Shown one piece after another: positions 41,768 to 58,761 of a stretch of DNA of 64,000 nucleotides. This DNA is from Rathayibacter oskolensis (lineage in GTDB: Bacteria; Actinomycetota; Actinomycetes; Actinomycetales; Microbacteriaceae): assembly GCF_900177245.1 (NCBI RefSeq), contig NZ_FXBM01000001.1:186001-250000 (forward strand), in the 5' to 3' direction. Positions within the stretch are counted from its first letter, which is position 1; each line of letters begins with the position of its first letter. A program made the position numbers and the translations under genes. The notes under the pieces are model-generated. The model was given only the letters and a program-made list of their open reading frames with translations, was not told where the DNA came from and made no database searches.

Positions 41768-41895
41768 GGCCCCTCCGATCTCCTCCGCAGTGTAGGACGG
41801 AGGGGCGACCCGCGACCGGGTGCCTGCGCAGCGATGCGGTCGCGTCGACGGATCCGGTTGCCAAAATGCTCGTTCGGTGTCGTAATAGAGGCACT

Positions 41896-43317: not shown

Positions 43318-43432
43318 GCGCGCCCTCCTGTCCGCCGTTCCCCGCCGCTCGCGCCCGAGGGCCGCTCCGCTCCGGTAGCTTGCACAGCGGGCGGCGGCAG
43401 GACGGGGGCGGACGACCATGGAGGGGATGACC

Positions 43433-44443
43433 ATGCCGGAGGCGATCCTCGCGATCGCGGGATGGGCCGCGGGAGCGGTCCTCGTCGTCAGCGGTTCCCT
43501 GAAGCTCGGGCGCGCCGAGGCCTTCCGCGCCAGCCTCGCAGCCCTCGGACTCCCGGCGCTCCTGTCGCGTCGAGCGCTCGTCGCCCGGGTGTTCCCCGTC
43601 GTCGAGATCGTGCTCGGGCTCGGCGTGGTCCTCGCTCCGTCGCCGCTGCACCGTGCCGCCCTCGCGGCCGCGGCGCTGCTCTACGCGGTGTTCCTCGTGG
43701 TCGCCGTCCGCGCGGCACTCGCGCCGGAGCCGGTCGACTGCGAGTGCTTCGGCGGTCTCGGCGAGTCGCGGATGACCGGGCGGACGGTCGTGCGCAACGC
43801 CGTGCTGCTCGCCCTCGCGCTGGCGGGACTCGCCGGCCCCGCGCCCGCCGCCCTGCTGGCGGTGCCCGGCTCCGGGGTCGCGAGCCCGGCCGCGTCGGCG
43901 CTCGCCGCAGCACTCGCGGCGGTCGTCCTCGTCCTCGTCCGCGATCGGCGCGACACGCGCGCGCCGGCGCCGGCGCCGCAGGTCGCCGTGGCGCCGAGCG
44001 CCGACGGCCTCGAGCTGCGCACCTTCTCGGGCGAGCGGATCGCGCTGGCCGAGTTCGCGCAGCCTCCCACGCACCTCGTCTTCTTCTCGCCGAACTGCAT
44101 CTCGTGCCACGAGCTCGTCGAGCGGTTCCGCTGGTGGCCCCACGGGCTGCGCGAGGGGGAGGATCTCGTGCCCGTCCTCCTGGGACGCCCCGAGGTCTTC
44201 GCCGCCCACGAGGTCTTCGCTCCGCTCGTCGAGCACGCCCTCTACGACCCCGACCGCACGGTCGCCGCCGCACTCGGTCGCACCTCCACCCCGGGCCACG
44301 TCCGGCTCGACCCCGCGCACCCCCTCGGCGACGGCTGGACCTCCGGCCGCCTCCCCATCGAGCGGCTCGTGCTCCGCCCCGACTTCTTCGACGACGTGCA
44401 GGCCGGGCGGATCGGGCCGGACACCGCCGGTCGCCCCGCCTGA
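43433..44443 (+). CDS. MauE/DoxX membrane domain fused to a thioredoxin-like domain
   Basis: This protein of about 336 residues has a MauE-type four-helix domain at residues 1-165 (VLVVSGSLKLGRAEAFRASL, and the redox pair CECFGGLGESRMTG). A fifth hydrophobic segment and then a thioredoxin-like domain follow, with HLVFFSPNCISCHELV (CxxC). It probably shuttles disulfides across the membrane for a periplasmic partner. Three in-frame ATGs cluster at the start; the third is preferred because GGAGG lies eight bases before it. The second domain lacks the cis-Pro of classical thioredoxins in an obvious form, although STPGH is a candidate. Confidence 0.8.
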   Translation: MPEAILAIAGWAAGAVLVVSGSLKLGRAEAFRASLAALGLPALLSRRALVARVFPVVEIVLGLGVVLAPSPLHRAALAAAALLYAVFLVVAVRAALAPEPVDCECFGGLGESRMTGRTVVRNAVLLALALAGLAGPAPAALLAVPGSGVASPAASALAAALAAVVLVLVRDRRDTRAPAPAPQVAVAPSADGLELRTFSGERIALAEFAQPPTHLVFFSPNCISCHELVERFRWWPHGLREGEDLVPVLLGRPEVFAAHEVFAPLVEHALYDPDRTVAAALGRTSTPGHVRLDPAHPLGDGWTSGRLPIERLVLRPDFFDDVQAGRIGPDTAGRPA

Positions 44444-44504
44444 CGCCGCTCTGCGCGACGATGGAGACCCCCGTCCGCCTCACTCGCACCCCTCGGAGTC
44501 CGCC

Positions 44505-45056
44505 ATGCCCCTCTCGCTCGGTTCGCTGACGACCCTGCCCGCCGCGGATCGTCCCGACCTCCTCGCCCCGGCCGTCCTCGCGGGGGCGGAGCGCGACGCC
44601 CTGCTGACCGAGCTCGGCGTGGTCGAGATCGACGCCGCCGACTCCGAGACCGCCACCACGAAGGAGCGCTACGGACTCGACGAGCGCGATCTCGCCAACT
44701 GCGTCGTCGTCGCAGGATCCCGGGCGGGGGAGGAGCGCATCGCGGCCTGCGTGGTGCTGGCCGACTCGCGCGCCGACGTCAACGGAGCGGTCCGCCGCCT
44801 CCTCGACGTCCGCAAGGCCTCGTTCCTCCCGATGGAGCGCGCCGTCGCCGAGTCGGGCATGGAGTACGGCGGCATCACGCCGATCGGCCTCCCCGCCTCG
44901 TGGCGGCTCCTGGTCGACGCACGGGTCCTCGAGCGTCCGGCCGTCGTCATCGGCAGCGGCGTCCGCCGATCGAAGATCGTGCTCCCCGGTGCGGTGCTCG
45001 GGCGCCTGGCAGGGGTCGAGGTGATCGAGGGGCTCGGCGTGCGCCAGACGGCATGA
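44505..45056 (+). CDS. YbaK/aminoacyl-tRNA deacylase domain protein
   Basis: The 183-residue single-domain protein shows the YbaK/EbsC/ProX fold: NCVVVAGSRAGEERIAACVVLADSRADVNGAV, RKASFLPMERAVAESGMEYGGITPIGLP and VVIGSGVRRSKIVLPGAVL. The conserved Lys in RKASF and the GGxxP loop are kept. Members hydrolyse mischarged aminoacyl-tRNAs in trans. It is coupled by 4 bp to the lipoprotein gene downstream, probably without functional relation. Confidence 0.9.
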   Translation: MPLSLGSLTTLPAADRPDLLAPAVLAGAERDALLTELGVVEIDAADSETATTKERYGLDERDLANCVVVAGSRAGEERIAACVVLADSRADVNGAVRRLLDVRKASFLPMERAVAESGMEYGGITPIGLPASWRLLVDARVLERPAVVIGSGVRRSKIVLPGAVLGRLAGVEVIEGLGVRQTA

Positions 45057-45727
45057 GGATCCGCGCTGCGGCTCTGATCGCCGGATCGGCGGTCGTCCTG
45101 GCGGCGATCACGGGGTGCACGCCCGACGTCCCCGGCCCCTCGCCGACCTCTCCGCTCGTGACCCGCGCCCGCGAGGAGGCGGCGCGGGAGTTCGCCGCGG
45201 CTCTCGAGCTGGAGGCGACCGACGGGGTCGAGGAGATCGCGCGCGCCGACGAGGACTGGTGCTTCGCCGAGGGCGGCCCGACGGGGATCTCGCTCGTCCC
45301 CACCGGCGCCGAGTACAGCACCGTCTGCCTCCTCGAGGGGGCTGTGGTGTACGCGGTGCACGGTGCCGACCAGGGCACCGCCGCCGCCGAGGTCGACGCG
45401 TTCCTGGCGCGCAACGGACTGCAGTCGTCCGACGGATCGGTCGTCGACGCCGTCGGCGGACAGGATCTGCTGGCCGGCCCGGAGGTCTTCGGAGGCGCCG
45501 GACCCGGCGACGCGGCCTCGATCACGTGGCTGCTCGGTGACGCGTCGCGCCTCCAGGTCGACGGTCTCCCTCTGGCCGAGGGGTACAACCGCGTGTCCTA
45601 CGAGGGGACCATCACGGAGGAGACTCCGCAGGAGCTGCGGGCGACCGGCGCGTCCTTCGCGCTCACGGTGCAGCTCACCCGGCGGTACTTCAGCGGCACG
45701 GGCGACGGGGAGCTCCCGGCCGACTGA
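45053..45727 (+). CDS. hypothetical lipoprotein
   Basis: The predicted 224-residue secreted lipoprotein has signal peptide MRIRAAALIAGSAVVLAAITGC (lipobox ITGC). The mature region is acidic with two Cys (DWCFAEG and STVCLLEG) that may form a disulfide outside the cell. The rest is a mix of helices and strands without a known motif. Its ATG overlaps the YbaK stop by 4 bp. Function is unknown. Confidence 0.75.
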   Translation: MRIRAAALIAGSAVVLAAITGCTPDVPGPSPTSPLVTRAREEAAREFAAALELEATDGVEEIARADEDWCFAEGGPTGISLVPTGAEYSTVCLLEGAVVYAVHGADQGTAAAEVDAFLARNGLQSSDGSVVDAVGGQDLLAGPEVFGGAGPGDAASITWLLGDASRLQVDGLPLAEGYNRVSYEGTITEETPQELRATGASFALTVQLTRRYFSGTGDGELPAD

Positions 45728-45769: not shown

Positions 45770-47434
45770 GTGACCGCACTCCTCGTCGTGATCGTGACCG
45801 CGCTGGTGGTCATCGCCGCCTCCGCGGTCCTCGGCCCCCGCCTCGGCATCGCCTCGCCCCTCGTCCTCGTCGCGATCGGAGTCGGCGCGAGCTTCCTCCC
45901 CCTGGTCGGCACCGTCGAGATCGAACCGGAGTGGATCCTCCAGGGCGTGCTGCCCCCGCTCCTGTACTCGAGCGCCGTGTCGATGCCGGCGATGAACTTC
46001 CGTCGCGAGTTCGGCGCCATCAGCGGCCTCTCGGTGCTGCTCGTGATCGGCACCTCGCTCGTGCTCGGCCTCTTCTTCCTGCTCGTCCTGCCCGATCTCG
46101 GCTTCGCGTGGGGTGTGGCCCTCGGCGCGATCGTCAGCCCGACCGACGCGGTGGCGACCTCGATCGTGAAGGGCACGACCGTCTCGCGGCGCGTCGTGGC
46201 GATGCTCGACGGCGAGAGCCTGCTGAACGACGCGACGGCGCTCGTGCTCCTGCGCACCGCGATCGCGGCGGCCGCCGCCGGGTTCTCGCTCTGGGGAGCG
46301 GTCGGCTCCTTCGCCTACTCCGTCGCGGTCGCCGTCGCGATCGGCGCCCTGGCCGGCTGGCTGAACCTGGCGGTGCGGCGGCGGCTGAGCGACCCCACGG
46401 TCAACACGATCCTGTCGTTCACGGTGCCCTTCCTCGCCTCCGTCCCCGCGGAGCTCCTCGGGGGCTCGGGCCTCGTCGCCGCCGTCGTCGCCGGAGTCGT
46501 CACGGGCATCCGGGCGCCGCGCGAGCTCTCGCCGCAGAACCGCCTCTCGGACTCGCAGAACTGGCGGACGGTCGAGCTGGTCCTCGAGGGGGCCGTGTTC
46601 CTCACGATGGGCCTGCAGGTCAGGGCGATCGTGACGAGCGTCGAGGAGGACCACGCCGGCGTGGGGCCCGCTGTCCTGGTCGCGGCCGGCGCCCTGCTGC
46701 TCACGATCCTCGTGCGGGCGGCCTACGTCGCTCCGCTTCTCGGTGTGCTCGCGGGGAGGTCGCGGCTGCGCGAGCGCATGCGGCCCCGGGTCGAGGATCT
46801 GCACGAGCGGATGAACACGCCGGAGGGCCGGCAGGAGACCCTCGAGTCCCAGCGCGGCCGCGCGCGCTCCGCACGCGATCTCGACCGGTTCTCGGTCCGG
46901 CTGACCCGGATCCTGGCCGACATGGAGTACTTCGTCCGCGCACCCCTCGGCTGGCGGGAGGGCGCGGCGGTCGTCTGGGCGGGGATGCGGGGAGCCGTCA
47001 CCGTGGCGGCGGCTCAGACGCTGCCCGAGGGCACGCCGCAGCGGTCGGTGCTCGTGCTGGTCGCCTTCGCGGTGGCGACGATGTCGCTCGCGCTGCAGGG
47101 CGGCACGATCGGGCCGCTCCTGCGCCGCATCGCTCCCCCTGTCGACCGGGAGGCGCTCGCCCGCGACGCCGACGAGGAGCGCTCGCGGGTCTTCGCCCTC
47201 CTGAAGACCAGCGCGGAGGCGATCGAGGAGCCGCCGCCCGCGACCGAGGAGCGCGGGACCGCGGCGTTCGAGGCGGCCAGGCGCCACCGCCTGGCCGTCA
47301 TCGCGGCTCAGCGCTCGGCCCTGCTCGACGCGCGCGACGACGGCACCTTCGACGCCGACGTGCTCGAATCGGTGCTCGCCGCCCTCGACGCGTCGCAGAT
47401 CGACATCGAGCTGAGGGGGCGCGCCGCGCGCTGA
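45770..47434 (+). CDS. Na+/H+ antiporter, CPA1 (NhaP) family
   Basis: The 554-residue transporter has about 12 helices. The ion-binding signatures are GAIVSPTDAVATSIVKG and LDGESLLNDATALVLLR (Asp of ND motif). A later GMRGAVTVAAAQTLP (helix 10-11 region) and a cytoplasmic C-terminal tail of about 100 residues are typical. It exports Na+ in exchange for protons and helps pH and salt balance. It lies immediately upstream of a likely osmolyte locus, which may be functionally related. A GTG start without a strong ribosome site is used. Confidence 0.92.
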   Translation: MTALLVVIVTALVVIAASAVLGPRLGIASPLVLVAIGVGASFLPLVGTVEIEPEWILQGVLPPLLYSSAVSMPAMNFRREFGAISGLSVLLVIGTSLVLGLFFLLVLPDLGFAWGVALGAIVSPTDAVATSIVKGTTVSRRVVAMLDGESLLNDATALVLLRTAIAAAAAGFSLWGAVGSFAYSVAVAVAIGALAGWLNLAVRRRLSDPTVNTILSFTVPFLASVPAELLGGSGLVAAVVAGVVTGIRAPRELSPQNRLSDSQNWRTVELVLEGAVFLTMGLQVRAIVTSVEEDHAGVGPAVLVAAGALLLTILVRAAYVAPLLGVLAGRSRLRERMRPRVEDLHERMNTPEGRQETLESQRGRARSARDLDRFSVRLTRILADMEYFVRAPLGWREGAAVVWAGMRGAVTVAAAQTLPEGTPQRSVLVLVAFAVATMSLALQGGTIGPLLRRIAPPVDREALARDADEERSRVFALLKTSAEAIEEPPPATEERGTAAFEAARRHRLAVIAAQRSALLDARDDGTFDADVLESVLAALDASQIDIELRGRAAR

Positions 47435-47508: not shown

Positions 47509-50022
47509 ATGCGGGCAGAACTCACACTCGGTGCCGAGGAAGAGCTCCATCTGATCGATCTCGAGACGAGGCAGCTCTCGGCGCACGCTCCCCAGGTGCT
47601 GGCGCGGCTGCCGAAGGAGAGCTTCTCGGCCGAGCTTCAGCGCACCACGGTCGAGACCAACACGCCCGTCGTCGACTCGCTCGACGGGCTCCGCGAGCAG
47701 CTGATCACGCTCCGGAAGGCGGTCATCGACGCCGCGGCTCCCGATGGCATCGGCATCGCCGCCGTCGGCACGGCACCGCGATCCGAGCACAAGGACTTCG
47801 AGCTCACCAGCACCGGCCGCTACGGGCGGATGCAGGAGCAGTACCGCATGCTCGTGGACGAGCAGCTGATCTGCGGCACGCAGATCCACGTCGGCGTCTC
47901 CGATCGCGAGCTCGCCATCCAGATCTCGCAGCGGATCGCGCGCGACCTGCCCGTGCTGCTCTCGGCGAGCGCGAGCAGCCCCTACTGGAACGGCCAGGAC
48001 ACGGGCTACGCCAGCATCCGGACCATCATCTGGCAGCGCTGGCCGAGCGCGGGGGCGACCGGGCCGCTGGCCTCCGCCGCCGAGTACGACCGCCTGCTCG
48101 ACGACCTGATCGCGACCGGCGTCATCGCCGACTCCAAGATGGCGTACTTCGACGTCCGCCCCTCCTCGCACGCCCCCACGCTCGAGCTGCGGGTCTGCGA
48201 CGCGATGCCGATCGTCGACGACGCGGTGCTGGTCGCCGGCCTCTTCCGCGGCCTCGTGCGGGCGGCCGAGCTCGACATCGAGGCCGGGCGGCCGTTCCGG
48301 CACACCCCGCCGCCGATCCAGCGGGCGGCGACGTGGCAGGCGGCCCGCGGCGGCCTCGTCGGTCAGCTCCTCGACCACACCGAGCACCCCCGGCCCGTCC
48401 CCGCGGCGGAGGCGCTGCGCAGCATGATCGCGCGCCTCCAGCCCGCGCTCGACGAGCTCGGCGACCTCGAGCAGGTGCGCGATCTCGCCGAGGCGCTCAT
48501 CGCCCGCGGCAACTCGGCCGACCGCCAGCGCGCCGTCTTCGCCGAGCGCGGCACGCTCGACGCCGTGGTCGACTCGGTGGTCGCCGAGACGCACGGCCCG
48601 GCGAGCGGGCCCATCCTGCCGGCCCCGAGCCTGCGCACCTACCGGGTGCGGGCGGGCGACGAGGCCGTGGCCACCGGCGGCCGGCCCCGCAGCGCCTACC
48701 AGCCGATCCTCGAGCACTTCCGCGATCTCGGGACCGAGCGGCTCGGCGAGCTGCACGAGTCCCGCGACCGCCTGGTCGAGGCCGCGGGGATCACCTTCCG
48801 CCTGGGCGACGAGGACCGCCCGTTCCCGGTCGACCTCGTGCCGCGCGTGCTCCAGTCGCACGAGTGGTCCGAGCTCGCGGCGGGGCTCGAGCAGCGGGCG
48901 CGCGCGCTCGAGTGCTTCCTCCAGGACGCCTACGGCGAGGGCAGGGCGCAGAGCGACGGCATCGTGCGGACGCTGCGCGGAACCGCCGGCTGGCGCGAGG
49001 AGGCGACCCGCCTCCCGCCGGGCACCGTCCGCGGTGCCGTGATGGGCTTCGATCTCGTCCGCAACGAGTTCGGCGGCTGGCGCGTGCTCGAGGACAACCT
49101 GCGCAATCCCAGCGGTCTCGCCTACGCGATGGGCATCCGCTCGCTGGTCGACGACCTCCTCCCCGACCTGCCGCGGCCCGAGGGTCTGCTCGACCCGTCG
49201 AGCGCGTTCGCCGAGCTGCGACGCACGCTTCTGCACGGCGTCGATCAGCGCGTCCCCGAGCCCGTGCTGGCCCTGCTCTCGAGCGGGGCGTCGAGCTCGG
49301 CCTGGTTCGAGCACCGCGCTCTTGCCGAGGGCGCGGGCATGCTCCTGCTCGAGGCGGAGGATCTCACGGTCGAGGGCGGGCGGGTCCGCGCACGCGGGGT
49401 CGTCGTCGACGCCCTCTACCTCCGGCTCGACGTCGAACTCGCCGACCTCGTCGCCGAGGATCGCGCCATCGGGCAGGAGGTGCTCGTGGTCGCGTCGGCG
49501 GGCGGCGTGTTCCTCGCGAACGCGCCCGGGAACGGCATCGCCGACGACAAGGCGCTCTACTGCGCGGTGCCCGAGCTCATCGGCTACTACCTCGATGAGC
49601 GCCCGCTGCTCGAGTCGGTGCCCACCTACCGTCCGGAGGACGAGGCGGAGCGCCGCATCGTGCTCGAGCGGGTGGGCGAGCTGGTGACCAAGCCCGTCGA
49701 CGGCTACGGCGGGCGCGGCGTGATGATCGGCCCCTCCGCCGCGGCCTCGCGCGTCGCCGAGCGGCGCGCGGCGATCGCGGCCGAACCGGAGGCGTGGGTC
49801 GCCCAGGAGGTCGTGCGGCTGTCGTCGCTGCCGTCGTTCTCGGGCACGGAGCTGCAGCCCCGGCACGTCGACCTCCGCGCCTTCGTCTTCGTCACGGGCA
49901 CCGGGCCGGGCGACATCCGGCTCGCCGACCTCGCGCTGACCAGGGTCGCCGCAGAGGGCAGCATGATCGTCAACTCGTCGCGGGGCGGCGGCGCGAAGGA
50001 CACCTGGATCGTGGGGGCCTGA
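47509..50022 (+). CDS. carboxylate-amine ligase (GCS2) fused to circularly permuted ATP-grasp
   Basis: This 837-residue two-domain protein starts with a GCS2/YbdK-type glutamate-cysteine-ligase-like domain (about 1-365; GAEEELHLID, TTVETNTPV, CGTQIHVGVSD, LELRVCDAMPIVDDAVLVA). A circularly permuted type 2 ATP-grasp domain follows (about 385-837; DLVRNEFGGWRVLEDNLRNPSGLAYAMG, NAPGNGIADDKALY, VTKPVDGYGGRGVMIGP). Both halves belong to families that form amide bonds with ATP. It is followed after 3 bp by an NAGGN-type amidotransferase and should make the dipeptide backbone that the latter amidates. The exact amino acids are unknown. Confidence 0.9.
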   Translation: MRAELTLGAEEELHLIDLETRQLSAHAPQVLARLPKESFSAELQRTTVETNTPVVDSLDGLREQLITLRKAVIDAAAPDGIGIAAVGTAPRSEHKDFELTSTGRYGRMQEQYRMLVDEQLICGTQIHVGVSDRELAIQISQRIARDLPVLLSASASSPYWNGQDTGYASIRTIIWQRWPSAGATGPLASAAEYDRLLDDLIATGVIADSKMAYFDVRPSSHAPTLELRVCDAMPIVDDAVLVAGLFRGLVRAAELDIEAGRPFRHTPPPIQRAATWQAARGGLVGQLLDHTEHPRPVPAAEALRSMIARLQPALDELGDLEQVRDLAEALIARGNSADRQRAVFAERGTLDAVVDSVVAETHGPASGPILPAPSLRTYRVRAGDEAVATGGRPRSAYQPILEHFRDLGTERLGELHESRDRLVEAAGITFRLGDEDRPFPVDLVPRVLQSHEWSELAAGLEQRARALECFLQDAYGEGRAQSDGIVRTLRGTAGWREEATRLPPGTVRGAVMGFDLVRNEFGGWRVLEDNLRNPSGLAYAMGIRSLVDDLLPDLPRPEGLLDPSSAFAELRRTLLHGVDQRVPEPVLALLSSGASSSAWFEHRALAEGAGMLLLEAEDLTVEGGRVRARGVVVDALYLRLDVELADLVAEDRAIGQEVLVVASAGGVFLANAPGNGIADDKALYCAVPELIGYYLDERPLLESVPTYRPEDEAERRIVLERVGELVTKPVDGYGGRGVMIGPSAAASRVAERRAAIAAEPEAWVAQEVVRLSSLPSFSGTELQPRHVDLRAFVFVTGTGPGDIRLADLALTRVAAEGSMIVNSSRGGGAKDTWIVGA

Positions 50023-50025
50023 CGC

Positions 50026-51807
50026 ATGTGCGGACTCGGCGGCGAGATCAGGCTCGACGGGCGGCGCGCCGACGCCGCCGCGGTCGAGCGGATGACGGCG
50101 TGCATGGTGCACAGGGGGCCCGACGGCGACGGCCTCTGGGCCCGCGGGCCGGTCGCTCTCGGCCACCGCAGGCTGTCGATCATCGATCTGTCGCCCGCCG
50201 GCTCGCAGCCGATGATCGACTCCGCGCTCGGGCTCTCGATCGTCTTCAACGGCTGCATCTACAACTACGAGCAGCTGCGCGCCGAGCTGGAGGCGAAGGG
50301 CCACCGCTTCTTCTCCCACTCCGACACCGAGGTGATCGGCAAGGCCTACGCCGAGTGGGGCACGGACTGCGTCGACCGCTTCCTCGGCATGTTCGCCTTC
50401 GTGATCGTCGAGCACGTCTCGGGCCGCGTCGTGATGGCCCGCGACCGCCTCGGCATCAAGCCGCTCTACCTCGACGAGACGCCCGAGCGGATCCGCTTCG
50501 CCTCCACGGTGCAGGCGCTGCTCGCGGGCGGGGTCGCCGACACCTCGATCGACCGCACTGCGCTGATGTTCTACCTGAGCTTCCACTCCGTCGTCCCGGC
50601 GCCCCGCACGATCCTCTCCGGAGTCACGAAGCTGCCCCCCGCGACGGTCCGCGTGATCGAGCCCGACGGCTCCCGTCACGAGCACGTCTACTGGGAGCCC
50701 GTCTTCGCCCGCGACCCCTCGCGGGCCGACTGGTCGGAGCGCGACTGGCAGGAGGCGCTCATCGCGTCGTTCCGCACCGCCGTCGAGCGCCGCATGGTCG
50801 CCGATGTGCCCGTCGGCGTTCTGCTCTCGGGGGGCATCGACTCGAGCCTCGTCGTCGCGCTGCTCGCCGAGGCCGGTCAGACGGGGCTGCAGACGTTCTC
50901 GATCGGCTTCGACTCGGCGGGAGGCGAGTCGGGCGACGAGTTCGAGTACTCGGGCCTGGTCGCCGAGCGCTTCGGCACCGACCACCACCGCATCGCGATC
51001 GACTCCTCGCGCCTGCTGCCGGGGATCGACGGGGCGATCGCCGCGATGAGCGAGCCGATGGTGTCGCACGACGCGGTCGCCTTCTACCTGCTCAGCGAGG
51101 ACGTCTCGCAGCACGTGAAGGTGGTGCAGTCCGGGCAGGGCGCCGACGAGGTCCTCGGCGGCTACGACTGGTACCCGCCCCTCTCGGACGTCCCGCGCGC
51201 AGGGGCGGCGGAGGCGTACGCCTCGGTGTTCTTCGACCGGCGGTTCCCCGAGCTCCAGGCGCTGCTCACCCCCGAGTGGCGCGGGGAGGACGCGGCGACG
51301 GCCTTCATCGCCGAGCGCTTCGGCCGGCCGGGGGCCGACACCTCCGTCGACGCAGCGCTCCGGAACGACACGACCGTCATGCTCGTGGACGACCCGGTGA
51401 AGCGCGTCGACAACATGACGATGGCCTGGGGTCTCGAGGCGCGCGTGCCGTTCCTCGATCACGAGTTCGTCGAGCTCGTCGGCCGCATCCCGCCGGAGCT
51501 GAAGCTCGCCGACGGCGGCAAGGGCGTGCTGAAGCGCGCGGTGCGCGGCATCGTGCCCGACGAGGTGATCGACCGCACCAAGGGCTACTTCCCGGTGCCC
51601 GCGATCCGTCAGCTCGAGGGCCCGTACCTCGAGCGGGTGCGCGCGGCGCTGACGGATCCGTCGGCCCGAGCCCGCGCGGTCTTCGATCCCGCGACCGTCG
51701 ACTCCCTCCTGGCCGACCCGAACGCGACACGCACCCGCCTCGGATCGAACGAGCTCTGGCAGCTCGCCCTCCTCGAGATGTGGCTCCAGGAGCACGGAGT
51801 CGGCTGA
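50026..51807 (+). CDS. asnO: N-acetylglutaminylglutamine amidotransferase-like asparagine synthase
   Basis: This 593-residue class II amidotransferase has Cys2 (MCGLGGEIRLDG), VHRGPDGDG, NGCIYNYEQLRAELEAKGHRF, and the ATP-pyrophosphatase loop LLSGGIDSSLV. Later blocks are SEPMVSHDAVAFYLLSE, VVQSGQGADEVLGGYDWYPP and DDPVKRVDNMTMAWGLEARVPFLDHE. These closely follow the NAGGN amidotransferase family (AsnO) rather than AsnB. It would use glutamine and ATP to amidate the C-terminus of a dipeptide osmolyte. It is three bases downstream of the ligase fusion, so tightly cotranscribed. Confidence 0.92.
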   Translation: MCGLGGEIRLDGRRADAAAVERMTACMVHRGPDGDGLWARGPVALGHRRLSIIDLSPAGSQPMIDSALGLSIVFNGCIYNYEQLRAELEAKGHRFFSHSDTEVIGKAYAEWGTDCVDRFLGMFAFVIVEHVSGRVVMARDRLGIKPLYLDETPERIRFASTVQALLAGGVADTSIDRTALMFYLSFHSVVPAPRTILSGVTKLPPATVRVIEPDGSRHEHVYWEPVFARDPSRADWSERDWQEALIASFRTAVERRMVADVPVGVLLSGGIDSSLVVALLAEAGQTGLQTFSIGFDSAGGESGDEFEYSGLVAERFGTDHHRIAIDSSRLLPGIDGAIAAMSEPMVSHDAVAFYLLSEDVSQHVKVVQSGQGADEVLGGYDWYPPLSDVPRAGAAEAYASVFFDRRFPELQALLTPEWRGEDAATAFIAERFGRPGADTSVDAALRNDTTVMLVDDPVKRVDNMTMAWGLEARVPFLDHEFVELVGRIPPELKLADGGKGVLKRAVRGIVPDEVIDRTKGYFPVPAIRQLEGPYLERVRAALTDPSARARAVFDPATVDSLLADPNATRTRLGSNELWQLALLEMWLQEHGVG

Positions 51808-51874
51808 GCCGCTGTTCGCACCCCGTTCGCCCGCCGCGCAACACCGGGCCCGGCCGGTGCAGAAGGATGGAGTC

Positions 51875-53761
51875 ATGACGCTCCTCGCCCCCGACCGGCT
51901 CGCCGCCGCCGAGCAGCTCGGACTCGAGCTCGTGCACGCCTGGGGCAGCTGGGGCCCCACGATGACCCCGGACGCCGCGCGGATGGCCTTCATCAGCGAC
52001 CGCAGCGGCACCCCGGAGGTGTGGCTCCAGGACGTGGTCCTCGACGGTGAGCCCCCCGAGGCGCGCTGCATCCGCTTCACCGAGGATCCGGTGGTCTCGG
52101 TCTCGTGGTCGGCCGACTCCGCCTGGCTCGCGTGCCTCGTCGCGACGGACGGAGGCGTGCGCACCCAGGTCTGGGTCGTCCGGCCCGACGGCACCGACGC
52201 CCGCCGCATCGCGGGCTCCCGCGACGCCCACGCAGAGCTGGGCCCGTGGACGCGCAGCGGGCACCACGTCGTCGTCACGATCCCCTCGGCCGAGCCCGAG
52301 CAGCCGACGCGCTCCTTCCTCGTCGATCCCGCCTCGGGGGAGCGCCAGCCGCTCGTCGACGGCGACCTCATCTCGGTCCTGGACCTCTCGGTCGAGGAGC
52401 GCCTCGTCGTCGTCCGCGACGGTCAGCGCGGCCACCAGTACTGCGTCGTCGTCGACCGCCTCACCAACGAGAACCACGCGCTGCTCCCCGACTCCGGCAC
52501 CGGCTCGACCGATGTCGCACTCCTGCGGCCCTCGGCCCTGAACGACAACGAGAGCCCGATCGTGGCCTACCTGGCGACGGACGTCGATCTGCCGCGGCGG
52601 CAGCTGGTCGCGATGCCGCTCGGTCCCGACGGCTGGCGCGGCCGGATCCGGCGCCTCGCCGCCCGCGACGACGCCGAGCTCGAGGGCCTGGACGCCGACG
52701 ACGCCGGTCGGCTCCTCATGCTGGTGTGGAACGTCGCCGGCTCGAGCGAGATCGAGCTCTTCGACACCACGACGGGAGCGCGCGTCCCCGTCGCCGGTCT
52801 CCCCGGGCTGGTCGCGACCACTCCGGTGCTCTCGCGCGACGGCGGGAGCGTGGTCCTCGGTGTCGAGGGGCCGGAGCGGCCGCGCGAGCTGTGGCGCATG
52901 GACACGACGACCCACGAGTGGTCGCGCCTGACGCAGGTGCCCGCCCTGCCCGCCGAGCCGCTGGTCGTACCGACGCTGGAGCGCTTCACGGGCCGTGACG
53001 GGCTCGCCCTCTCGGGGTGGCTCTACCGCGCGCCGGGGGTCGAGGGCCCCGGTCCCGCGATGCTGAGCCTGCACGGCGGTCCGGAGTCGCAGGAGCGCCC
53101 GACGTTCGCGGCGCAGCACCAGGCCGTGGCGGCCTCCGGGGTCACCGTGTTCGCACCGAACGTCCGCGGGTCCTCCGGCTTCGGCCGCGACTTCGTGCAC
53201 GCCGACGACGTCGAGAAGCGCTCGGACGCGTTCGACGACGTCCTGGCGTCCGCCTCCTTCCTCGTCGAGTCCGGGATCGCGGATCCCGACCGGATCGCGG
53301 TCACCGGCCGCTCCTACGGCGGGTACCTGACCCTCGCCTCCCTCGCGTTCTCGCCCGGTGTCTTCGCGGCAGGAGTCGACATCTGCGGGATGTCGGACCT
53401 GCGCACCTTCTACCGCGACACCGAGCCGTGGATCGCCTCGGCGGCCGTCACGAAGTACGGTCACCCCGAGCACGACGCCGAGCTGATCGAGCGCCTCTCA
53501 CCCCTCGGCAGCGCGTCGGCGATCGAGGTGCCGCTGCTCGTGGTCCACGGCGAGCTCGACACGAACGTGCCGATCGGGGAGGCGAGGCAGATCGTCGCCG
53601 CGCTCGAGGACCTCGGCCGACCCGTCACCTACCTGCAGCTCGACGGCGAGGGTCACGAGTACCGCCGGGCCGAGTCGAAGGAGCTGCTCCTGGTGAGCCT
53701 GGTGAGGTTCGTGAGCTCCGCCCTCTCGGTCGGGCCCTCCGCCGGATCGTCCGAGGCGTAG
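51875..53761 (+). CDS. S9-family (prolyl oligopeptidase-like) peptidase
   Basis: This 628-residue serine peptidase has an N-terminal beta-propeller (about 1-370). The alpha/beta hydrolase domain carries the catalytic triad Ser480 (GRSYGGY), Asp562 (GELDTNVP) and His594 (GEGHEYR). It has no signal peptide, so it is cytoplasmic. It lies 68 bp after the amidotransferase gene in the same direction. NAGGN loci elsewhere carry an M42 peptidase at this place, so the S9 enzyme may turn over the dipeptide amide. A general acylaminoacyl-peptidase is the alternative. Confidence 0.88.
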   Translation: MTLLAPDRLAAAEQLGLELVHAWGSWGPTMTPDAARMAFISDRSGTPEVWLQDVVLDGEPPEARCIRFTEDPVVSVSWSADSAWLACLVATDGGVRTQVWVVRPDGTDARRIAGSRDAHAELGPWTRSGHHVVVTIPSAEPEQPTRSFLVDPASGERQPLVDGDLISVLDLSVEERLVVVRDGQRGHQYCVVVDRLTNENHALLPDSGTGSTDVALLRPSALNDNESPIVAYLATDVDLPRRQLVAMPLGPDGWRGRIRRLAARDDAELEGLDADDAGRLLMLVWNVAGSSEIELFDTTTGARVPVAGLPGLVATTPVLSRDGGSVVLGVEGPERPRELWRMDTTTHEWSRLTQVPALPAEPLVVPTLERFTGRDGLALSGWLYRAPGVEGPGPAMLSLHGGPESQERPTFAAQHQAVAASGVTVFAPNVRGSSGFGRDFVHADDVEKRSDAFDDVLASASFLVESGIADPDRIAVTGRSYGGYLTLASLAFSPGVFAAGVDICGMSDLRTFYRDTEPWIASAAVTKYGHPEHDAELIERLSPLGSASAIEVPLLVVHGELDTNVPIGEARQIVAALEDLGRPVTYLQLDGEGHEYRRAESKELLLVSLVRFVSSALSVGPSAGSSEA

Positions 53762-54242: not shown

Positions 54243-55517
54243 TCAGTCCTGCAGCACCCACGTGTGCGGAGGGACCACGACTCCGCCGACCGTGACGGGG
54301 TCGTCGCCGAGGTTGAGCCCGAGTCGCGCGGTCTCGCCGTCGGGGCCCTCCGCGATCAGGAGCGCCGCGGTGTTCGAGAGGTCGACCGATCGCGTCCTCG
54401 AGTCGACGAGCCAGGGATGGCGACGCCGGAAGGCGATGACCTCCTGGTGGGCGCGGTAGGCCTCCCCGCCGCTCCAGGCGCCCGGGTCGGCCGGGAACTC
54501 GGGACGGATCGCGTCGTCGCCTCCGGCGCGCTCCTCCTTCACTCCCTCGAGCCCGCGCTCGTCGCCCGAGTAGACGCTCGGGACGCCGCCGACGAAGCCG
54601 AGGATCGCGGTCGCGTGGCCGTGGTGCCTCGGATCGGTGATGGCGCTCGCGAGGCGGGTCACGTCGTGGTTGCCGATGAAGGTGAGCGGGAGGAACTCGT
54701 CGAGGAACCCGCCGTGACGCTGCAACGTCCAGTCGAGCTCGAAGAGGTTGCCCTCCTCGATCGAGGAGCGGACCGCCTTCCACAGCTCGTACTGGGTGAC
54801 GGAGTCGAGCCCCGACTCGCGCACGTAGGCCGAGTAGTCGCCGTGGATGACCTCGCCCACGAACCACGCCTCGGGGAACCGCTCGCGGACAGGATCGATC
54901 GCCGAGCGCCAGGCCGCCGGCGGGACGGCGTAGGCCGCGTCGAGCCTCCAGCCGTCGATGCCGCGCTCGAGCCAGTGCGCCATCACCGACGAGACGTACT
55001 CGGTCACCTCGGGGTTCGCGGTGTCGAGCTCGACCAGCGCCTCGTGTCCCTCGAAGACGTCGACCAGCAGCCCGTCGACCTCGCGCGAGCTCTCGCTCCG
55101 CGAGAACCGCGCCGCAGCGGGCGACCCGGGGCCCGCGGCGACCGCCTCGCGCCACCAGGGGTGATCCCTGCCCACGTGATTGAAGACGCCGTCGAACAGC
55201 ACGCGGATGCCGCGTGCGCGGCAGGCGGCGATCAGCTCGTCGAGGTCGCCGTCGTCGCCCAGGCGCGGGTCGACCCGGAAGTGGTCGACCGTGTCGTACC
55301 CGTGGGTCATCGAGGCGAAGACCGGGCCGAGGAGCAGCCCGTTGCAGCCGAGCGCGAGCAGGTCGTCGAGCCAGGGCAGGATCGAGAGGAGGCGGTGCCG
55401 CGGCTCGTCGCCGGGACCTGGCCCCTCGATCGCCGTCGCCTCGGCACCGGCGAAGCCGAGCGGGTAGACCTGCCACCAGATCGCCGTCGTGATCCAGCCG
55501 TCCGTCGTCTGCGCCAT
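54243..55517 (-). CDS. alpha-amylase family (GH13) glycosyl hydrolase
   Basis: The 424-residue GH13 barrel has all four conserved regions: DGVFNHVG, GWRLDAAYA (nucleophile Asp193), FVGEVIHGDY (acid/base Glu222) and FIGNHDVTR. A short C-terminal beta domain ends HTWVLQD. There is no signal peptide, so it is intracellular, and it probably acts on maltodextrin- or trehalose-related substrates. The ATG giving MAQTTDGWITTAIWWQVYPLGF is the natural start. It is the downstream member of a possible pair with the small membrane protein gene. Confidence 0.92.
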   Translation of the reverse strand: MAQTTDGWITTAIWWQVYPLGFAGAEATAIEGPGPGDEPRHRLLSILPWLDDLLALGCNGLLLGPVFASMTHGYDTVDHFRVDPRLGDDGDLDELIAACRARGIRVLFDGVFNHVGRDHPWWREAVAAGPGSPAAARFSRSESSREVDGLLVDVFEGHEALVELDTANPEVTEYVSSVMAHWLERGIDGWRLDAAYAVPPAAWRSAIDPVRERFPEAWFVGEVIHGDYSAYVRESGLDSVTQYELWKAVRSSIEEGNLFELDWTLQRHGGFLDEFLPLTFIGNHDVTRLASAITDPRHHGHATAILGFVGGVPSVYSGDERGLEGVKEERAGGDDAIRPEFPADPGAWSGGEAYRAHQEVIAFRRRHPWLVDSRTRSVDLSNTAALLIAEGPDGETARLGLNLGDDPVTVGGVVVPPHTWVLQD

Positions 55518-55599
55518 GGTCGCCGCCCTCCCGGCCCGCTCGAGCGCGGGCCGCCGCGAGTGTAGCGACAGGGCCTGACCCCGGGCAGCGCGCCACGGC

Positions 55600-55968
55600 T
55601 CACGCACCTCCCGGCCGGAGGGCGGCGACCCAGGCGAGAGCCGCTGCCGCGCCCCGCAGCGCCGCAGGCACCGTGACCGACGCCACCGCGAACGCCAGCA
55701 CGGCGCTCGTCAGCCCGACGGCGCCCCACCGGCGCTCGCCGGGTCGCATCAGCGCGACGACTCCGTGAACCGCCCCGGCCAGGGCGAGGCCCGCGGAGGC
55801 GAGCACCCAGAGCGGGTGCACGGCGGAGGTCAGGGCGAGCAGGCCGAGCGCCACAGCGGTGAGCCCCGGTTCTCGAGTCGGGGGCCGCCGCAGCACTCGG
55901 GAGGGCGGGCCCGCGGTCGGCGCGGCGGGCTCGAGGACGGGAGGGGGGGAGAGTGCGGTGATCGACAT
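55600..55968 (-). CDS. small membrane protein, unknown function
   Basis: The 122-residue protein has a Pro-rich cytoplasmic N-terminus of about 35 residues and three to four hydrophobic helices (TAVALGLLALTSAVHPLWVLASAGLALAGAVHGVVAL...). It contains GERRWGAVGLTSAVLAF, a pattern seen in small DUF4190-like membrane proteins. A GAGGATC ribosome site supports the start. The next gene upstream on the other strand is HU. There is no functional clue. Confidence 0.65.
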   Translation of the reverse strand: MSITALSPPPVLEPAAPTAGPPSRVLRRPPTREPGLTAVALGLLALTSAVHPLWVLASAGLALAGAVHGVVALMRPGERRWGAVGLTSAVLAFAVASVTVPAALRGAAAALAWVAALRPGGA

Positions 55969-56252
55969 GACCCGATCCTCGCGATCCGCGGACGGTCGCG
56001 GGCCGGCGCTCACCCGATCGGTGGACCCGTCGCGGAAGGGGCTCCTGTGGAGGCCGATCGGCGCCGCAGGACCGCTCGTCGGCGCCGATCGCCGTGATTC
56101 CGCGGTTCTGAGCACGTGTTTCGCGAGGAAACGTGGATGGGGCTGGTAGGTTACGGACGGTCCGACCGGTTGAGGGAGTCCGTCCCCGGCCGAGGACGAT
56201 CCACAACCACCAGCTGTTCTCAACAGCGCGAACGTCCTGGGAGGACACTCCA

Positions 56253-56540
56253 ATGGCTGACAAGTCGCTCAACCGCACCGAGCTCGTCGCGAAGATCGCC
56301 GCGGACTCCGGCCAGAGCCAGGCCGCCGTCAACGGCGTCCTCGACTCGCTCTTCTCCACCCTCGCCGACTCCGTCTCGAACGACGTGAAGGTCACCATCC
56401 CGGGCTGGATCGCCGTCGAGCGCACCTCCCGCGCCGCCCGCACCGGCCGCAACCCGCAGACCGGCGAGACCATCCAGATCGCCGCCGGCCACTCGGTCAA
56501 GGTCTCGGCGGGCACCAAGCTCAAGGCCGCGGCCAAGTAG
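56253..56540 (+). CDS. hup: HU-family DNA-binding protein
   Basis: The 95-residue histone-like protein starts MADKSLNRTELVAKIAADSG. It has the DNA-binding arm VTIPGWIAVERTSRAARTGRNPQTGETIQIAA and ends KLKAAAK. It lacks the long Lys/Ala tail of mycobacterial HupB. It compacts and bends chromosomal DNA. GGGAGG lies eight bases before the ATG. The upstream 140 bp on this strand are AT-richer and should hold its promoter. A perfect terminator hairpin follows 17 bp after the stop. Confidence 0.96.
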   Translation: MADKSLNRTELVAKIAADSGQSQAAVNGVLDSLFSTLADSVSNDVKVTIPGWIAVERTSRAARTGRNPQTGETIQIAAGHSVKVSAGTKLKAAAK

Positions 56541-56557
56541 TCACCGCCTCCGCACTC

Positions 56558-56593
56558 CGACGACGGCCCCGGCTCCTGCCGGGGCCGTCGTCG
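56558..56593 (+). terminator. hup terminator hairpin
   Basis: A perfect 15-bp stem (left arm CGACGACGGCCCCGG) with a 6-base loop CTCCTG, directly followed by TTG. It lies 17 bp after the hup stop codon. Confidence 0.9.
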
Positions 56594-56640
56594 TTGCACG
56601 TCCAGGCTCCCCATCAGCCGCGAGAACGTAGGCTTGACGG

Positions 56641-58761
56641 GTGAATCGAACCGTCCGGATCGCCGCCCCGGCGCTGCTCCTCGTCGCCGCGGCGCTCGCG
56701 GCGCTGCTCGCGGCGCTGGCGTTCGGGCGGGGTGCCGACGCGCCGCTGCTCAACGATCCCGGGCCCGTCGTCCGCTACGGCCTCCCCCTGGCGAAGCTCG
56801 CGGTCAATCTCGGTGCCGCCGGCATGATCGGCTCGCTCGTGCTGACGCTCTTCGCGCTGAGCCCCCATGCCGCCACCCGCCGGTCCGCCCGCTCCGCGTC
56901 GGCCCGCGTCGCCGCCGAGCGCCCGGCCCTCGTCGGCGCCGGCGCCCCGGGCGCGCCCCGCTCCGGCGGTCGCGACCCGCGCGCCTCCGAGGAGCGGGCG
57001 ACGGATCAGCCGGAGCCCCGCACCGAGTACACCGTCGCGCTCGACGTCGCAGCGGCCAGCGCCGCCTTCTTCGCCGCGGCGGCCGCCGTCACCGGCTTCT
57101 TCACCTTCCTCAACGTCACCCAGACGCCGCTGAGCTTCGATCGCGACTTCGGGACCAAGCTCAGCTACTTCATCGGGAGCATCCCCGTCGGGCAGGCCTG
57201 GCTGGTCACGACCCTCCTGGCCGCCGTCGTCACGGTGCTCTGCTTCGCGGTCCGCAACCAGACCGCGCTCGTCTTCGTCACCGCCGTCGCGCTGCTCACC
57301 CTCCTGCCGATGGCGCAGCAGGGTCATGCCGCGGGGACGAGCGGTCACGACGCGGCGGTCACCGCGCTGGGCCTGCACCTCGTCTTCGCGGCGATCTGGC
57401 TCGGCGGGCTGCTCACCGTCATCGTGCTCCGACCGCTCCTCGGCGGTTCGAGGCTGCTGCCCGTGATCGAGCGCTACTCGAGCCTCGCGCTGGTCAGCTT
57501 CGTCGTGGTCGCCGCCTCCGGCTACATCAGCGCCGAGCTCCGGCTGGCCACCCTCGACAACCTGCTGACGGGCTACGGGATCCTCGTGCTGGTGAAGGTC
57601 GCGGTTCTCGTGGTCCTCGGCCTCTTCGGCGTCCTGCAGCGCCGCGTCCTCATCTCCCGGATGCGCGCGGCCGGCGGCGAGGGGGGCCGCAGCTTCTGGT
57701 GGCTGGTCGGCGCCGAGATCGCCTTCATGGGCATCGCCTCCGGAGTCGCCGCCGCGCTCGCGCGCACCGCGACGCCCGTCGACCAGATCGCGGCCACGCA
57801 GCTCACCGACCCCACCCCCGCCGAGCTCCTGACCGGAGAGGCGCTCCCGCCCGAGCCGAGTGCGCTGAACTTCGCCACGCTCTGGAACGTCGACCTCGTG
57901 TGGCTGCTCGTCTGCGCCTTCGGCATCGCGTTCTACGTGGCCGGGGTGGTCCGCCTCCACCGCCGCGGCGACCGCTGGCCGCCGCACCGCACGGTCCTCT
58001 GGATCGCCGGCATGCTCCTGCTGGCGTACATCACGAACGGCGGGGTCAACGCCTACGAGAAGTACCTGTTCAGCGCCCACATGCTCTCGCACATGGTGCT
58101 GACGATGGCGGTCCCGCTCCTCCTGGTCCCCGCGGCGCCGGTGACGCTGATCGCCCGCGCGGTGACCCGGCGCACCGACGGCTCGCGGGGCCCGAGGGAG
58201 TGGGTGCTGCTGGCCGTGCACTCGCGGTTCGCGACCGCGATCTCGCACCCGATCGTCGCCGCCCTGCTGTTCGTCGGATCGCTGTGGGGGTTCTACTACT
58301 CCCCGCTCTTCCGCTGGGCCACGACCGACCACATCGGGCACGAGTGGATGATCGTGCACTTCCTGATCACCGGCTACCTCTTCGTGAGCGTGCTGATCGG
58401 AGTCGACCCCAGCGTCCACCGCGTCCCCTACCCGATGCGCCTGCTGCTGCTGCTGGTCACGATGGCGTTCCACGCGTTCTTCGGGCTGGCGCTGATGACG
58501 GGCGAGGGGCTGCTCCTGGCCGACTGGTACGGCGCGATGGGCTGGGGCACCGATGCCCTGGCCGATCAGCGGGCGGCGGGAGGCATCGCATGGAGCATCG
58601 GCGAGATCCCGACGCTGGCGCTCGCGATCATCGTCGCCATGATGTGGAGCCGCTCCGACGCGCGCGAGACCAAGCGCCGCGACCGCCAGGCCGACCGCAC
58701 GGGCGAGGCCGAGCTCTCGGCCTACAACGACCGGCTGGCCGCCCTGCAGAAGCGCGGCTGA
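56641..58761 (+). CDS. CopD/CtaG fusion, cytochrome c oxidase assembly and copper protein
   Basis: This 706-residue polytopic protein has an N-terminal CopD-like half (residues about 1-390, eight helices; GLHLVFAAIWLGGLLTVIVL). The CtaG/caa3 assembly half (about 415-670) has FSAHMLSHMVLTMAVPLLLVPAAPV, SLWGFYYSPLF, HEWMIVHFLITGYLF and VTMAFHAFFGLALM, with several His likely to bind copper. Actinobacteria commonly fuse these two domains. It delivers copper to the oxidase at the membrane. The last 35 residues are charged and cytoplasmic. It uses a GTG start just after the hup terminator. Confidence 0.93.
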   Translation: MNRTVRIAAPALLLVAAALAALLAALAFGRGADAPLLNDPGPVVRYGLPLAKLAVNLGAAGMIGSLVLTLFALSPHAATRRSARSASARVAAERPALVGAGAPGAPRSGGRDPRASEERATDQPEPRTEYTVALDVAAASAAFFAAAAAVTGFFTFLNVTQTPLSFDRDFGTKLSYFIGSIPVGQAWLVTTLLAAVVTVLCFAVRNQTALVFVTAVALLTLLPMAQQGHAAGTSGHDAAVTALGLHLVFAAIWLGGLLTVIVLRPLLGGSRLLPVIERYSSLALVSFVVVAASGYISAELRLATLDNLLTGYGILVLVKVAVLVVLGLFGVLQRRVLISRMRAAGGEGGRSFWWLVGAEIAFMGIASGVAAALARTATPVDQIAATQLTDPTPAELLTGEALPPEPSALNFATLWNVDLVWLLVCAFGIAFYVAGVVRLHRRGDRWPPHRTVLWIAGMLLLAYITNGGVNAYEKYLFSAHMLSHMVLTMAVPLLLVPAAPVTLIARAVTRRTDGSRGPREWVLLAVHSRFATAISHPIVAALLFVGSLWGFYYSPLFRWATTDHIGHEWMIVHFLITGYLFVSVLIGVDPSVHRVPYPMRLLLLLVTMAFHAFFGLALMTGEGLLLADWYGAMGWGTDALADQRAAGGIAWSIGEIPTLALAIIVAMMWSRSDARETKRRDRQADRTGEAELSAYNDRLAALQKRG

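Follow-up and report, generated by a model that had tools for sequence, protein, structure and literature searches.

The stretch of Rathayibacter oskolensis DNA analyzed here (64,000 nucleotides, contig NZ_FXBM01000001.1, positions 186,001 to 250,000 of the forward strand; hereafter the window) carries at positions 47509-53761 three closely spaced open reading frames (ORFs) of the same strand. They encode a fusion of a GCS2 carboxylate-amine ligase with a circularly permuted ATP-grasp domain, an AsnO-like amidotransferase and an S9 peptidase. We propose that this operon probably makes an amide-capped gamma-glutamyl peptide, which a glutathione-style ligase would assemble, the amidotransferase would cap and the S9 peptidase would recycle. 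This proposal draws on the genes present and their conservation, on the observation that the GCS2/ATP-grasp ligase and Ngg (the ligase of the N-acetylglutaminylglutamine amide, or NAGGN, pathway) exclude each other beside the amidotransferase, on the repeated pairing of ligase and amidotransferase, on a residue switch in the latter and on folds.

The operon and its products

The first gene (47509..50022, plus strand like all features of the operon; 837 aa) codes for the predicted bifunctional ligase. Its GCS2 domain (47509..48606, about residues 1-366), the putative gamma-glutamyl ligase half, matches Pfam PF04107 at residues 7-280 with 166 bits for a cut-off of 21. The circularly permuted ATP-grasp type 2 domain (48841..49950, residues 445-814), predicted to form a second peptide bond, matches CP_ATPgrasp_2 (PF14403) at residues 445-814 with 326 bits for a cut-off of 32. 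The YbdK-type NCBIfam profiles PRK13517.1-1 (367 bits, cut-off 332) and TIGR02050 (259 bits, cut-off 176) are also exceeded. When an AlphaFold2 model was compared with known folds, the GCS2 half appeared similar to YbdK and to the plant glutamate-cysteine ligase, and the ATP-grasp half to glutathione synthetases; the model of the fusion as a whole is less sure (predicted local distance difference test, pLDDT, 81.6; predicted template-modelling score, pTM, 0.61).

Only 3 bp separate the stop codon of the fusion from the amidotransferase ORF (50026..51807, 593 aa), whose product combines an Ntn glutaminase with an asparagine-synthetase domain (Pfam GATase_7 and Asn_synthase) and is predicted to amidate a peptide carboxylate. 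It is 95% identical to its counterpart in Rathayibacter sp. VKM Ac-2754 and reaches 945 bits against the NCBIfam model TIGR03104, named 'N-acetylglutaminylglutamine amidotransferase' (cut-off 570.1). The last gene (51857..53761) encodes 634 aa from a GTG, with an alternative in-frame ATG at 51875. Its product matches Peptidase_S9 (PF00326) with 146 bits, is nearest to acylaminoacyl-peptidase-like enzymes (closest solved relative, the amino acyl peptidase 5l8s, E 1e-42) and is the predicted hydrolase of the pathway product. From the places of its motifs, we take its catalytic triad to be Ser486, Asp568 and His600. The amidotransferase carries Cys2 and SGGIDSS, the ATP-grasp domain KPVDGYGG and NSSRGGGAKDTW, and the peptidase a Ser-Asp-His set, which we presume from sequence to be the motifs expected of active enzymes. 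Altogether, the ORFs and the Pfam and NCBIfam matches agree with the initial annotation, which had recognized these three products and had described the amidotransferase as following the N-acetylglutaminylglutamine amidotransferase family closely.

Gene neighbourhood survey

Species genomes were scanned with six aligned amidotransferases as the query, and the best 80 of at least 568 confirmed relatives are referred to as the 80 related loci. As these were picked by similarity, even samples of 396 Actinomycetota and 398 Pseudomonadota genomes were added. Neighbours were classed with profiles built for this analysis, a gene being counted when it lay on the same strand with its midpoint within 6.5 kb.

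Among the 80 related loci, 40 display the order fusion-AsnO-S9 and seven the fusion and AsnO without S9, while single loci show GCS2-ATP-grasp-AsnO-S9 in separate frames (the ATP-grasp being circularly permuted), GCS2-AsnO-S9 and ATP-grasp-AsnO. The others are 23 AsnO-Ngg loci (18 with an M42 peptidase), five AsnO-S9 and two AsnO alone. A GCS2 and a circularly permuted ATP-grasp domain thus lie upstream on the same strand in 48 of the 80, in a single frame in 47 of these 48 and at most 0.5 kb from AsnO except in L034 (1.6 kb); S9 follows downstream in 41 of them. The complete set, for which the initial annotation had advised such a survey, is therefore present in 41 of the best 80 loci, and its recurrence is far beyond chance. 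The claim of a conserved pathway variant, in which Ngg and M42 are replaced by the GCS2/ATP-grasp fusion and S9, is borne out by these counts.

The even samples gave a broader picture. In Actinomycetota, TIGR03104 was found in 46 genomes: 31 with Ngg adjoining, 13 with GCS2 and/or ATP-grasp, none with both kinds of partner, one with AsnO-S9 and one cut by a contig end. The 13 comprise four fusions, four Streptomyces-type GCS2-AsnO-S9 loci, one GCS2-AsnO and four ATP-grasp-AsnO. GCS2-AsnO-S9 without ATP-grasp occurs in Streptomyces, Embleya and Nonomuraea. Among the ATP-grasp-AsnO cases, a separate upstream GCS2 gene is present in L075 and L176 (by Pfam) and in L149 (by sequence only). A full-length fusion match was obtained in at least five of the 396 genomes, at most two candidates being scored per genome, and four of these adjoin AsnO. 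In Pseudomonadota, TIGR03104 was found in 43 genomes, 37 of them with Ngg somewhere in the retrieved stretch, irrespective of strand and order, two beside GCS2 (L228, L232), three with neither within about 4-6 kb on each side and one at a contig end. Ngg and GCS2 or ATP-grasp were never found together near one amidotransferase, on either strand, in the 132 classed loci, and Ngg lies on the 3' side of the amidotransferase in all 57 classed Ngg loci.

Evolution of the amidotransferase

Quick maximum-likelihood trees were computed with SH-aLRT (Shimodaira-Hasegawa-like approximate likelihood ratio test) support only. The first, of 129 amidotransferases, unites the fusion type, the Streptomyces type and their ligase-less relatives in one group (69 rows, SH-aLRT 96) adjoined by an Ngg group of 19 rows (SH-aLRT 84), and places the Rubrobacter-type proteins (3 rows) and L148 elsewhere. 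With Pseudomonadota included (174 rows, 171 different), about four partner changes are counted, a number made unsure by the long branches of L148, L228 and L232. Counting all branches, there are four independent partner pairs, and counting starred branches alone, two; a sign test with two starred contrasts cannot reach 0.05. The GCS2 partners also belong to different subfamilies, the best profile being PRK13517.1-1 for the window, PRK13517.1-3 (below cut-off) for L148 and L232 and PRK13515.1 for L228, and the GCS2 genes of L075 and L176 match TIGR02050 weakly. More than one origin of the pairing of GCS2 and amidotransferase is thus probable, and this speaks for a GCS2 product being a substrate of the amidotransferase. 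A chance pairing of AsnO with GCS2 was rejected, because the pairing recurs across lineages having different GCS2 subfamilies.

Columns separating the two kinds of partner were sought between the main groups; the test set then comprised 66 rows of GCS2 type and 95 of Ngg type. These counts leave out the seven AsnO-S9 and two AsnO-alone genes, L218, L224, L227, L230 and the fragments L149, L150 and L177, and include three repeats (L190, identical to L051's gene; L217, to L234; L063, to L066). L or I stands at residue 569 in 95/95 Ngg-type rows and in 0/66 GCS2-type rows, and G573 is found in 66/66 GCS2-type rows versus 4/95 Ngg-type ones. Residues 571 and 574 separate the partners nearly, and position 381, directly after the SGQGADEVLGGY stretch, is H in 91/95 Ngg-type rows and mostly D or S (56/66) in the GCS2 type. 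In the window, this partner-tracking motif reads RTRLGS (residues 569-574, 51730..51747, in a segment modelled with block pLDDT of 92 and 87), with R in place of the Ngg-type L/I at 569, a feature found here and not part of the published family definition. G573 is present in all six rows from lineages that played no part in the choice of columns (three Rubrobacter-type, L148, L228 and L232), and their residue at 569 occurs in no Ngg row. Residues 115, 119, 298 and 527 were dropped as phylogenetic rather than partner-specific, the Ngg pattern being present in Rubrobacter and, except for 115, in L148. The pattern of the retained residues suggests, from sequence, that they could contact the cap that differs between the two substrates, acetyl versus gamma-glutamyl; a gamma-glutamyl carboxylate would be a fitting contact for an arginine.

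The associated hydrolases

By the rule used above, M42 lies near the amidotransferase in 29 of 57 Ngg loci and is lacking in 28. On the same strand and up to 6.5 kb away, it was found neither in the window nor in the fusion loci. S9 stands in its place in the window and is present in 45 of the 52 loci that match both the GCS2 and the ATP-grasp profile. In three Thermomonosporaceae loci without S9 (L025, L029, L044), AsnO is followed by an EgtC-family gene, whose products score 219.6, 216.2 and 204.5 bits against TIGR03442 (cut-off 218.65; one just above and two below). The genomes of L025 and L029 (Actinomadura) encode a better-scoring EgtC elsewhere, and the operon copy is therefore a paralogue. 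In ergothioneine synthesis, EgtC removes glutamate from a gamma-glutamyl compound (PMC11993508), and the EgtC-family genes of these operons are the best sequence-based hint at a gamma-glutamylated product. Two Rubrobacter-type loci carry a DUF1028 protein directly after AsnO (L171 10831-11553, L176 8171-8959), which may be the peptidase of these operons and would be a lead on DUF1028 function.

Proposed pathway

We infer the reactions, their order, the amino acids X and Y and the role in osmotic or desiccation stress as follows. The GCS2 half would link glutamate, through its gamma-carboxyl, to the amino group of an amino acid X. The ATP-grasp half, with its modelled fold like that of glutathione synthetases, would activate the X carboxylate and add a second amine Y; the Streptomyces-type operons, having no adjoining ATP-grasp domain, would stop at gamma-Glu-X. 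The AsnO-like enzyme would then transfer ammonia from glutamine to the terminal carboxylate to give gamma-Glu-X(-Y)-NH2, which would be a net-neutral zwitterion, as befits a compatible solute. Recycling would be carried out by S9 and elsewhere by the EgtC-family hydrolase or the DUF1028 protein. By analogy with NAGGN, Gln would be the likeliest neighbour of the amide.

The initial annotation had suspected a different amidated, possibly gamma-linked, dipeptide. A different and possibly gamma-linked product indeed looks likely in the light of the EgtC-family hydrolase in sister operons, the modelled folds resembling glutamate-cysteine ligase and glutathione synthetases and the residue switch; the label of dipeptide is uncertain, because two ligase domains could yield a tripeptide. 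A role as compatible solute is plausible, the hints being the Frankia papers and the kinship with the NAGGN pathway. The 13 Frankia genomes examined each contain one TIGR03104 gene (at E 1e-100) with the GCS2-type R...G motif and with an ATP-grasp in its flank of 1.5 kb, which is too short to show GCS2. In Frankia alni, this gene is likely, we assume, FRAAL1888. A published study assigns the glutamine amidotransferase FRAAL1888 to NAGGN synthesis and reports it 2.2-fold up with polyethylene glycol (PMC5768760).

Comparison with known systems

The closest system is the NAGGN pathway and its asnO-ngg-M42 'trio' (TIGR03104/TIGR03103). Both have a homologous amidotransferase above the equivalog cut-off, presumably with the same capping step, and a short operon often with an adjoining peptidase. 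In place of Ngg, which joins a GNAT domain to an ordinary ATP-grasp and lies on the 3' side, there is here GCS2 with or without the circularly permuted ATP-grasp, on the 5' side in actinobacterial loci and on the 3' side in L228 and L232. M42 gives way to S9, EgtC-like or DUF1028 proteins, and the 569-574 motif is changed. Judged by these features, the locus would be a variant of the NAGGN-type capped-peptide pathway and not a member of the NAGGN pathway, because Ngg, M42 and the Ngg-type motif are lacking. The Ngg branch itself is real in Actinomycetota, since NAGGN has been isolated from a Micromonospora in which asnO and ngg had been predicted (PMC8146288).

Unlike GshF/GshAB and the GshA plus GshB pair, the operon uses the GCS2 and circularly permuted ATP-grasp families, with a proposed amidation afterwards, and the fusion gave no TIGR01435 or PRK02471 (GshF) match at E 0.001. 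The ergothioneine enzymes EgtA and EgtC share with it a GCS2-family ligase and, in some operons, an EgtC-family hydrolase, but the fusion scores 25 bits against the EgtA model (cut-off 371) and two Actinomadura genomes have their better EgtC elsewhere. Iyer et al. reportedly predicted in 2009 a cluster of circularly permuted ATP-grasp, alpha-E and Anbu proteins. The ATP-grasp family PF14403 is common to both, whereas the stand-alone relative in genome G001 is 43% identical, and none of alpha-E, transglutaminase and Anbu was found by Pfam among the seven called window neighbours (41866-45727, 54243-58761). Our literature search found no description of the GCS2/ATP-grasp-AsnO-S9 set; a prior mention is possible in Sagot 2010 and Iyer 2009.

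Points against the proposal and alternatives

A separate Ngg elsewhere in the genome, pairing with the amidotransferase, had been named by the initial annotation as a reason to abandon the idea, and the result on relatives is divided. Ngg is not in the window locus. In the Rathayibacter genus group, 12 of 15 genomes carry the fusion, none of these 12 has an Ngg above the TIGR03103 cut-off, and the sequences of these 12/12 genomes suggest that the window's own genome lacks it too. On the other hand, when the genomes of the 57 related loci that are not Ngg-linked were searched with TIGR03103, five had a match above cut-off: four of 48 (Blastococcus L013, Geodermatophilus L016, Mycobacterium intermedium L033 and Candidatus Mycobacterium methanotrophicum L056) and one of the other nine, a Mycobacterium metagenome-assembled genome (MAG; L066). 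In Blastococcus and Geodermatophilus, Ngg has its own adjoining AsnO (L183 and L182, respectively). M. intermedium and Ca. M. methanotrophicum show no fusion, an unlinked Ngg and one TIGR03104 gene above cut-off, in an AsnO-S9 locus with motif R569/D573 (L033 9001-10779 with L181; L056 9001-10779 with L180), and they are possibly a natural hybrid pathway. Because these two genomes contain one AsnO of the clade and an unlinked Ngg, the fusion-type AsnO clade may accept the Ngg product.

The five genomes and this possible acceptance weigh against our proposal, and so do the following observations. Seven loci have AsnO-S9 without an adjoining ligase (L023 being at a contig edge and L067 having only 2.1 kb upstream); of these amidotransferases, three (L033, L056, L065) have drifted to D573 and four, including L179, keep R/G, and no full-length fusion match was found in the genomes of L033, L056 and L065, nor in that of L179 at E 1e-80. 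Two Kocuria loci (L021, L022; 9001-10779) contain nothing of the set but a fusion-clade AsnO, whose motif is intermediate (H569/R573), and their genomes gave no full-length fusion match and no Ngg above cut-off. Genome G364 (L184 7788-11356) shows the fusion directly followed by an S9 cut by the contig end, and no TIGR03104 at E 1e-60, so that either AsnO has been lost or the amide cap is optional. No GCS2 was seen beside the ATP-grasp of L171, the GCS2 and ATP-grasp genes of L075 both look interrupted, and the EgtC relative before AsnO in L232, which represents another lineage, is weaker (153 bits for an EgtC cut-off of 219). The fusion and Streptomyces types do not differ at residues 569 and 573, which counts against us because the substrate lengths would differ if ATP-grasp adds a residue. 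To our knowledge, the substrates of GCS2/YbdK-type and circularly permuted ATP-grasp enzymes like these are not firmly assigned, and for that reason we only infer the gamma linkage.

Among other explanations, it is unlikely, though deserving the most weight, that NAGGN itself is made, the fusion being a non-orthologous N-acetyl-Gln-Gln synthetase and the amidotransferase label being right. The window amidotransferase passes the equivalog cut-off and shares 65% identity with its Ngg-linked counterpart in Azospirillum (L004), the two Mycobacterium genomes seem to run a fusion-clade AsnO with an unlinked Ngg, and the Frankia authors read their own cluster as NAGGN (PMC5563000). However, Pfam gives no acetyltransferase domain match in the fusion, and only ligase, AsnO and S9 are steady in the operons. 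The 569-574 motif and residue 381 shift with the partner, the motif doing so in separate lineages as well; EgtC-family hydrolases would suit gamma-Glu and not acetyl; and the two pathways of Blastococcus and Geodermatophilus, each served by a separate AsnO, would be redundant.

Slightly less probable still is that the gamma-glutamyl group serves as transient protection, added by GCS2 and removed by S9 or EgtC after amidation to leave an amino-acid or dipeptide amide. BtrJ and BtrG follow this logic in butirosin synthesis, and a hydrolase is usually present in the operons. EgtA and EgtC are described as working so in ergothioneine synthesis (PMC11993508). Yet in four loci with fusion and AsnO (L009, L013, L047, L059) the next ORFs are unlike S9 or EgtC, mostly by reading of the sequence, and for the NAGGN peptidase a role in balancing the pool has been proposed (PMC5563000). 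A secondary metabolite or low-molecular-weight thiol, namely an amidated glutathione analogue with X = Cys, instead of an osmolyte appears improbable. The name of the GCS2 family refers to glutamate-cysteine ligation and both halves of the fusion resemble, in the model, glutathione enzymes, but no other gene family is steady beside the operon and the amidotransferase comes from a solute family. Many actinobacteria, moreover, make mycothiol instead of glutathione.

Neighbouring genes and individual loci

A Na+/H+ exchanger family gene (45770-47434, PF00999, 152 bits) lies 74 bp upstream of the operon; its best NCBIfam model, TIGR00831, gives 206 bits, under the cut-off of 279.6. It had been taken as a sign of salt stress, a reading that finds no echo in conservation: by tblastn in flanks of up to 9 kb, the antiporter was absent from 80/80 related loci, the closest Rathayibacter locus included. 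We rule it out as a component of the system and regard it as a local neighbour only. The other surrounding genes are ordinary (DAO-family oxidoreductase, MauE-like, tRNA-editing-like, alpha-amylase-like, HU-type DNA-binding and CtaG-like), and the GC content of the window is 69.6-74.5% in 4-kb blocks. Across loci, no further gene was seen at a steady place near the operon besides ligase, AsnO and S9, families not being annotated singly.

Some loci call for separate mention. Pseudofrankia L047 has one GNAT gene after AsnO. In Micromonospora foliorum (L059 10809-11942), a second GCS2 gene lies on the opposite strand just after AsnO, at the usual place of S9, and the amidotransferase motif deviates (E569). 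In L195, an ATP-grasp gene is found beyond the Ngg operon on the opposite strand, in what seems by sequence an alpha-E-type cluster, and was taken as a chance neighbour. The Pseudomonadota locus L230 (4103-7163) has TIGR03104 without either partner, directly followed by a weak TuaH-like protein, and a H569/K573 motif; this is perhaps a third use. The Kocuria genome of L022 has a second TIGR03104 match of 852 bits. The contig of L063 is filed under a Nevskia MAG, its AsnO being identical to that of the Mycobacterium MAG (L066), and it was probably mis-binned.

Significance

About three in ten actinobacterial TIGR03104 genes (13 of the 46 sampled) adjoin a different ligase, and genome-based claims of NAGGN synthesis, for example in Frankia, may therefore be wrong. 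The Frankia 'Ngg' is described as less than 15% identical to known ones (PMC5563000), which a different ligase would explain if our proposal is true. In a wider view, to which we give about even chances, gamma-glutamyl-peptide amides would be undescribed metabolites made by glutathione-type chemistry and widespread in Rathayibacter, Frankia, Streptomyces, some Micromonospora and others; they would have arisen several times by a swap of ligase beside one amidotransferase, and the solute could be told by a short motif. This residue motif predicts the pathway from sequence, and the family probably illustrates, in nature, how the ligase of a pathway can be exchanged repeatedly while its capping enzyme is kept.

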